The translations under genes were made by a program, and so were the position numbers. A DNA stretch of 64,000 nucleotides from Fictibacillus terranigra (GTDB lineage Bacteria; Bacillota; Bacilli; Bacillales; Fictibacillaceae). The notes under the pieces were generated by a model, which ran no database searches, had not been told where the DNA came from, and saw nothing but the letters and a program-made list of their open reading frames with translations. The stretch is taken from contig NZ_JAUHLN010000006.1 of NCBI RefSeq assembly GCF_030412265.1, positions 1 to 64,000 on the forward strand, given 5' to 3'. Below, one piece after another: positions 59,913 to 60,660 of the stretch (the first letter of the stretch is position 1; every line of letters begins with the position of its first letter).

Positions 59913-60293
59913 TTATTGCAGAAACGATGTCGCCTTATAGTTCACGCCGATTCCATTTCCTCCAGCATTGCCTGAGTCGACCACTTTAAGGTAATAGTCT
60001 CCTGATTCTGCGAGATTGATTACCTTTTGATAGCCTACACCCTTTTCTGTGATCCAAGGTGTCTGGCCGACTCTTTCATCCTTAAAAAATAAATGCTTTT
60101 GCCAAAGCTCCAGCTTCAGCTTCCCGCTTCCCGTGGTCTTCTTGATCGAAATGGTCGCGTAGGTGTCGTCAAACGACACAGAGGACGAGGACTTATCTCC
60201 ACCATTCGACCTGACCTGAAGCGAGCTGGCCGCATAAACAGTGCTGGTCACCATTAAAAGGAATACCGTTAAAAGGATAGTTTTTGCCTTCAT
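59913..60293 (-). CDS. small secreted protein of unknown function
   Basis: The product (126 residues from ATG 60293; AGGTG 8 nt upstream) has a signal peptide of about 22 residues (MKAKTILLTVFLLMVTSTVY, cleaved after AA) and a mature domain of about 100 residues that is mostly beta (SVSFDDTYATISIKK, GKLKLELWQKH, GDYYLKVVDSGNAG). No family is known to me. Its Shine-Dalgarno lies inside the right arm of a 19-bp perfect palindrome, which suggests tight regulation. Confidence 0.75.
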   Translation of the reverse strand: MKAKTILLTVFLLMVTSTVYAASSLQVRSNGGDKSSSSVSFDDTYATISIKKTTGSGKLKLELWQKHLFFKDERVGQTPWITEKGVGYQKVINLAESGDYYLKVVDSGNAGGNGIGVNYKATSFLQ

Positions 60294-60302
60294 AACGAAA
60301 TC

Positions 60303-60347
60303 ACCTCGCACGTATGTTATTTCAACATAATAACATACGTGCGAGGT
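60303..60347 (-). promoter_or_regulatory. 19-bp perfect inverted repeat over the Shine-Dalgarno of the secreted protein gene
   Basis: ACCTCGCACGTATGTTATT (60303-60321) and AATAACATACGTGCGAGGT (60329-60347) are exact complements around the loop TCAACAT. On the minus strand the last bases, GCGAGGT, contain the ribosome binding site of the gene at 60293. It can act as an RNA hairpin that hides the site or as a DNA operator. Confidence 0.85.
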
Positions 60348-60374
60348 AAACTTAATGGAATTACATAAAACAGT

Positions 60375-60392
60375 AGGTTTGTCCTACTTACT
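60375..60392 (-). terminator. terminator of the small membrane-anchored protein gene
   Basis: On the minus strand CAGTA-AGTAGG and CCTACTG pair with one bulge and are followed by TTTT. Confidence 0.65.
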
Positions 60393-60660
60393 GTTTTTTC
60401 TCATTGAAATAATGAACGCCATAAGCTGAACCTTCCGATACCATTTTTGAGTCTTCATAGTCACTCGGATCAGGATGGCCGCCTTTTTCGACAGGGAGCA
60501 CCTTCGTCCTTTCTGTATAGTCAGGTTTAATTTTTCTTTTGATATTTTTAAATGCTAGTTTGGTGCGTATTCTATTAGGTTTGGAAGATAACCATACAGC
60601 CGCCGCCGATGTGCCTAAACCCACTAATATCCAAGGTTTCATACTCATTGTTTGTCTCAT
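60388..60660 (-). CDS. 90-residue N-terminally membrane-anchored protein
   Basis: The product has one hydrophobic segment (about 8-24, PWILVGLGTSAAAVWL) and a basic then acidic tail (RTKLAFKNIKRKIKPDY, HPDPSDYEDSKMVSEGS). AGGAGGG precedes the ATG. I know no family. Confidence 0.6.
   Translation of the reverse strand: MRQTMSMKPWILVGLGTSAAAVWLSSKPNRIRTKLAFKNIKRKIKPDYTERTKVLPVEKGGHPDPSDYEDSKMVSEGSAYGVHYFNEKKQ

Follow-up and report, generated by a model that had tools for sequence, protein, structure and literature searches.

A Shine-Dalgarno-hiding hairpin with a putative nested promoter upstream of a secreted-protein gene of Fictibacillus terranigra

The window analysed here is a stretch of 64,000 nucleotides of the Fictibacillus terranigra genome. 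On its minus strand, the gene of a 126-aa secreted protein (59913..60293) is preceded by a long inverted repeat (60303-60347), one arm of which runs into the Shine-Dalgarno sequence of the gene. This hairpin is very probably a selected RNA element that hides the Shine-Dalgarno. The most likely reading, and one considered probable overall, is that it shields the gene against read-through transcription, the gene's own promoter being nested within the same inverted repeat. The sequence itself shows the hairpin, the conservation of its pairing as RNA of the gene strand, a promoter-like portion that hardly varies, and other genes laid out in the same way.

Hairpin geometry, stability and rarity

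The initial annotation described two exact 19-bp arms and a 7-nt loop upstream of the gene, and these were confirmed as a perfect inverted repeat at 60303-60321/60329-60347 (arms of 19 nt, 100% complementary, spacing of 7 nt). Read along the minus strand, the RNA hairpin opens with its 5' arm (ACCTCGCACGTATGTTATT, 60347-60329), followed by the loop (ATGTTGA, 60328-60322), the 3' arm (AATAACATACGTGCGAGGT, 60321-60303) and the start codon at 60293. The 3' arm terminates in GCGAGGT, as had been annotated, but the Shine-Dalgarno read from the sequence (GAGGTGAT, 60300..60307, minus strand) extends past the perfect arm: its first five nucleotides lie inside the arm, where they are complementary to the outer end of the 5' arm. 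RNA folding adds the pairs U60348-G60302 and U60349-A60301 on the gene strand, which lengthens the helix to 21 pairs and takes in two more Shine-Dalgarno nucleotides. The fold has a computed energy of -34.3 kcal/mol (z -6.7), a stability equalled by none of 200 dinucleotide shuffles, and the Shine-Dalgarno is paired within the helix of the long transcript according to computed folds and covariation.

When 464,000 bases of the organism's own genome, window included, were surveyed for perfect inverted repeats with arms of at least 12 nt and loops of 3-15, the hairpin ranked second in length among 56; the others with arms of at least 15 nt are mostly A/T-flanked terminators, judged by eye. The hairpin is also the strongest stem over any Shine-Dalgarno among 5,158 candidate starts (a Shine-Dalgarno followed by at least 80 open codons) in 2,057,022 bases. 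Stems over a Shine-Dalgarno scoring at least 11 numbered 12, against a mean of 0.2 over five shuffles of each; by eye, approximately four to six of these 12 belong to real gene starts, the remainder being terminators, opposite-strand readings or spurious frames. Because of its rank in both surveys, the hairpin was judged not to be a product of chance. Additional Shine-Dalgarno stems, of 11-12 pairs, were seen near position 16116 of L120 and near 5796 of L148, the latter preceding a ROK-family kinase gene (family match below cut-off).

Candidate copies elsewhere were sought and rejected. A DNA search of the organism's own genome for a repeat element matched the locus in both orientations and, apart from it, just a paralogue of the end of the upstream gene. 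A search of seven genomes with a model of the hairpin (R1) gave 20 matches at E 10, of which 12 were the six hairpin loci on both strands. The best of the other eight (E 8e-4) has a T run behind it and precedes a gene that is presumably guaA, while three matches at E 2-8 are a hairpin before recJ, discussed below.

That the hairpin ends transcription of the upstream gene as a terminator or attenuator, or that it protects the 5' end of the mRNA as a stabiliser, is improbable. A loose terminator scan does list the site as terminator-like, the hairpins of two genomes (G004 and G005) are followed by a T-rich tail, TTTCGTTTT, and a T run stands behind the recJ version in several genomes. The longest T run within 14 nt past the stem is nevertheless only 3 or 4 among the six genomes with the hairpin, as had been claimed in noting that a U-run is lacking, and an intrinsic terminator was rejected on that ground. 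A stabiliser is opposed by the position of the stem, which covers the Shine-Dalgarno and so would block translation.

Conservation and covariation

The hairpin is kept in six of the seven Fictibacillus genomes with the gene, F. macauensis being the one without it. Covariation of the arms among homologues, which the initial annotation had proposed as a check, was found. On the alignment of the six genomes, a 20-pair structure has 96.5% of its 114 cells paired, compared with 88.9% in shuffles, and 4/114 unpaired; the hairpins of G004 and G005 have two unpaired positions each. Both sides are altered in five of the 20 pairs; five others vary on a single side, becoming G-U, and include one that also has two unpaired cells; the remaining ten are constant. 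Among 500 shuffles, none reached the covariation score, none the percentage paired and three the count of double-sided pairs, although related sequences can beat shuffles even without structure, and six hairpin sequences from two clades only represent few independent events. A measure of further pair types did not beat the shuffles (reached by 374/500). Structures slid along the alignment gave zero double-sided changes.

The G-U cells number eight on the gene strand, against two if the other strand is read. This strand bias favours RNA of the gene strand as the form in which the pairing is conserved and argues against a purely symmetric DNA operator. The annotated interpretation was thereby upheld in its central part, that an RNA hairpin hides the ribosome binding site (on covariation and G-U changes), whereas the conditional opener or operator that it offered as explanations is less supported than a nested promoter.

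Variation is distributed unevenly along the hairpin. In the outer part, seven of ten columns of the 5' arm and five of ten of the 3' arm are variable; in the inner part, the counts are 0/7 for the 5' arm, 1/11 for the loop and 3/9 for the 3' arm. The stretch surrounding the loop, TATTATGTTGAAATAA, is invariant across the six genomes save for one column, and the drift in the inner 3' arm runs to G-U partners of the fixed 5' arm. Since the inner 5' arm and loop are near-invariant while the 3' side drifts, a second job at the level of sequence is suggested there.

In one alternative, a dimeric repressor binds the palindrome over the promoter and the RNA hairpin is incidental. Operators are usually laid out as a dyad across a -10 element, and the inner half-sites are the more conserved. 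The outer arms, however, vary with compensation, and the five one-sided G-U changes break the symmetry of the DNA while keeping the pairing of the RNA, with changes favouring the gene strand. Moreover, a full palindrome of 45 bp is unusual for an operator, and a fixed 5' inner half opposite a 3' half that drifts by G-U is not expected of equal half-sites. An operator thus appears rather unlikely, and in its simplest form, in which symmetric half-sites are conserved as DNA, it was rejected.

A conditional RNA switch, in which both arms are transcribed and the hairpin is opened by temperature, a helicase, a loop-binding protein or a small RNA, is given a somewhat better but still low likelihood. 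It would account for the conservation of the hairpin as RNA and for a nearly invariant loop, as expected of a binding site. The hairpin also resembles RNA thermometers and Shine-Dalgarno-masking riboswitches in that the Shine-Dalgarno is paired. It differs from them in that an Rfam search gave nothing at the gathering score (over the hairpin, only microRNA and small-RNA models at E 0.2 or worse), and a perfect helix of approximately -34 kcal/mol is far too stable to melt as a simple thermometer; an RNA thermometer was rejected on these two grounds. A second exact site for the loop sequence is absent from the genome, and a promoter explains the conservation of the loop with fewer parts.

Putative promoter within the hairpin

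The near-invariant part of the hairpin contains a proposed extended -10 element, TATG-T-TATTAT (60327..60337, minus strand), whose TRTG is formed by the inner half of the 5' arm. It is present at the same place in all six genomes, as TATG-T-TATTAT in the window and G004, TATG-T-TACTAT in G005 and TATG-T-TATATT in the other three. A candidate -35 element, TTAAGT (60350..60355, minus strand; CTAAGT in three of the six genomes), lies 17 nt from the -10 and renders the candidate promoter weak by consensus. Scored with approximate sigma-A weights, the site is the best promoter-like sequence of its stretch in the window, G004, G005 and G001, second in G006 and third in G002. A TRTGN with an equally good -10 occurs at a frequency of 4e-5 per position (199,540 positions). 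Sporulation sigma motifs were also sought in the window hairpin by eye, using consensus sequences, and none was convincing.

As the extended -10 lies in the inner 5' arm and loop, an RNA from this promoter would start after the 5' arm; the predicted start, 6-8 nt past the -10, is at the beginning of the 3' arm (60319..60321, minus strand). The initial annotation held that a start inside the palindrome would defeat the idea of a hidden ribosome binding site. This rule is not right, as such a start would explain why the sequence of the loop is conserved along with the pairing.

In the window, opening the Shine-Dalgarno is computed to cost 12.6 kcal/mol for a read-through RNA (modelled from 200 nt upstream) and 5.2 kcal/mol for the proposed own RNA (from 26 nt upstream). 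Across the six genomes these costs are 11.3-18.8 and 3.3-7.2 kcal/mol, respectively, so that the predicted own RNA still needs 3-7 kcal/mol to open its Shine-Dalgarno. The corresponding values for F. macauensis, without the hairpin, are 8.7 and 5.0 kcal/mol.

Read-through and the neighbouring genes

A co-directional gene of 90 aa, membrane-anchored by its look (60388..60660, minus strand), is the likely source of any read-through. It stops 40 nt before the hairpin in the window, and in each of the six hairpin genomes the end of this gene lies ahead of the hairpin, the whole gene being seen in F. solisalsi. A separate terminator of this gene had been annotated just beyond the hairpin; a 6-bp stem followed by GTTTTA does exist on the gene strand, yet it is at best a weak terminator and by eye is not conserved in three of the six genomes. 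In F. macauensis the co-directional gene is absent from this place, the upstream neighbour is divergent and the hairpin is missing, which is what a read-through shield predicts, albeit in one evolutionary contrast. A diverged paralogue of the upstream gene was noted on another contig (L002:1289-1562), with no such hairpin behind it by eye.

In the proposed mechanism, RNA entering from the upstream gene would carry both arms, fold into the 19-21 bp hairpin and hardly be translated. RNA from the nested extended -10 would start near 60319-60321, past the 5' arm, leaving the Shine-Dalgarno free or much freer. With the own RNA devoid of the 5' arm and the read-through RNA folded, the secreted protein would therefore be made only upon firing of its own promoter. 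From the features described we infer where the transcript starts, which sigma factor is used, that read-through takes place and that translation is blocked.

The protein itself appears restricted to Fictibacillus. It is encoded in 7/7 of the genomes of the genus that were compared and 0/27 other genomes of the family, an order-wide sample of 397 genomes gave three matches, all Fictibacillus, and the named records of homologues are likewise from this genus (five loci). The annotation of a secreted beta-protein without a known family stood up to the searches made: comparison with Pfam and NCBIfam gave no family at cut-off, and structure prediction gave, at low confidence (mean pLDDT 63.7), a beta sandwich composed of strands and one short helix in the signal peptide. 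This model had no match to the PDB at E ≤0.001 and contributes little.

Comparison with known systems

A mechanism of this kind is established for gene e of phage T4, whose early read-through RNA is silent and whose late RNA lacks the 5' strand of the hairpin, with a 100-fold reduction given for gene e; the same logic is described for soc, 49 and I-TevI, and the structure is predicted in related phages (PMC3014915). The arrangement in Fictibacillus resembles that of gene e in that the Shine-Dalgarno lies in a helix and the promoter (putative here) is placed such that the gene's own transcript lacks the 5' strand. The T4 cases concern phage lysis and homing genes with late promoters, whereas the genes found here belong to Bacillales chromosomes, their promoters, predicted from sequence, being sigma-A-like or apparently of the sporulation type. 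The setting would differ from T4 in the ordinary chromosomal genes, the several kinds of promoter and the conservation over a family.

The transposase genes of IS10 and IS200 are subject to fold-back inhibition by hairpins in read-through RNA. The likeness is that a gene would be guarded from transcription that comes in from elsewhere; there is, however, no transposon here, and the 5' arm in IS10 is the end of the element and not a promoter. A further source names antisense and Hfq controls, and its references include a title on the structure of IS200 mRNA (PMC8450116). Across the literature searched, which consisted mostly of papers available without subscription, no promoter nested in a Shine-Dalgarno hairpin of a Bacillus chromosome or of Bacillales was found to be reported.

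Similar layouts at recJ, ytaF and a YkuD-domain gene

The weak matches of the hairpin model mentioned above led to recJ (TIGR00644), the leader of which combines a Shine-Dalgarno-hiding hairpin with a predicted sigma-A promoter, close to consensus, inside it (L090-L119, e.g. L055:1501-1558). The recJ layout was matched in 34/34 genomes, and for both recJ and ytaF the loci considered here come from 30 of the 34 matched genomes. In all 30 recJ loci a TTGTCA (26) or TTGCCA (4) is separated by 17 nt (26) or 18 nt (4) from a TATAAT in the hairpin. In each of them the -10 keeps at least four of its six bases out of pairing, whereas every base of the Shine-Dalgarno hexamer pairs with sequence 5' of the -10. 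A pair count over 26 rows (11 distinct) showed 91.4% of cells paired and four pairs altered on both sides; it omits L116-L119, in which a change of register or a deletion shifts the arm, though these four do fold. Of 500 shuffles, the covariation score was reached by none, the both-sides count by 20 and the measure of further pair types by 177, and the structure slid by 3 still shows two double-sided pairs. The upstream neighbour was read in one locus, L055, and is secF (TIGR00966), which stops 10 nt short of the hairpin. The T run behind the recJ hairpin in several genomes suggests that it may have a double role as a terminator.

A comparable leader precedes ytaF (TIGR02840), which adjoins the preceding gene fpg (TIGR00577). 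Here CATATACT, or a variant differing by one base, forms the -10 in the 5' arm, and AAAGGAG or GAAGGAG in the 3' arm is paired 5' of it (26/30 loci; L230-L255, e.g. L178:12190-12236). The remaining loci, L256-L259, retain CATATACT without the Shine-Dalgarno hairpin as tested. A third hairpin, CACCTCCACTGACATAATGTAACAGTGGAGGTGG (L194:9373-9419), whose loop reads CATANNNTA, precedes the gene of a YkuD-domain L,D-transpeptidase (PF03734) and is itself preceded by a tag-like glycosylase gene (TIGR00624, below cut-off). It was identified in five of seven genomes, the gene itself having been read in one. By consensus, the -10 elements of ytaF and the YkuD-domain gene look like those of mother-cell sporulation promoters.

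Wider occurrence in Bacillales

A scan for CACCTC..TATAAT..GAGGTG gave 57 matches in 48 of 299 genomes, compared with nine for the reversed pattern and 16 (in 16 genomes) for one with a scrambled arm. Ten of the 57 have the sequence of the recJ hairpin. Thirty were taken further; in 16 of the 29 loci read, an open start follows the right arm, in some cases a short or TTG-started one. Outside the family, the same layout, with TATAAT in a CACCTC/GAGGTG hairpin at the start codon, was found at coiA (PF06054), sigI (TIGR02895) and a cytidine deaminase gene (NF005314), near position 1500 of L204, L205, L213, L214 and L215; families were scanned for L204, L213 and L215, and L205 and L214 were named by likeness.

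A separate pattern scan, in which palindromic sites count on both strands, gave 77 matches against 12 for the reversed and 29 for the scrambled-arm control, 15 of the latter being the transpeptidase palindrome itself. The hairpin of the window type fits this second pattern only in G006.

The chances are about even that nested promoter hairpins constitute a general device of Bacillales chromosomes, used with different sigma factors, by which translation would be confined to RNA begun at the nested promoter and operon read-through would be ignored. This general claim is weakened by the mixed make-up of the strong Shine-Dalgarno stems and of the pattern matches, by the shuffle controls at recJ and by the four ytaF loci without the hairpin. 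The same estimate covers the genes proposed to use it, which would be sensitive to timing: recJ, the sporulation gene ytaF and the L,D-transpeptidase gene with its spore-type promoter and, outside the family, coiA, sigI and the cytidine deaminase gene. Bacterial genes are closely packed and read-through is common, with insulation usually credited to terminators. With a promoter inside the hairpin, the choice of promoter would itself decide whether a message is translated. If widespread, such hairpins would mislead operon prediction and RNA-based estimates of expression, as RNA would be present and protein absent, and gene designers would gain a compact part for insulation. Through recJ and ytaF the design is open to testing in Bacillales laboratory strains.

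Among the 57 matches of the first scan, 15 begin CACCTCCTTTCA and form a recurring family of the CACCTCCTTTCACTTCTATAATCG type, for example at L201, L208 and L210; an open start stands behind the hairpin in 0/5 of the loci examined (L201, L208-L211).
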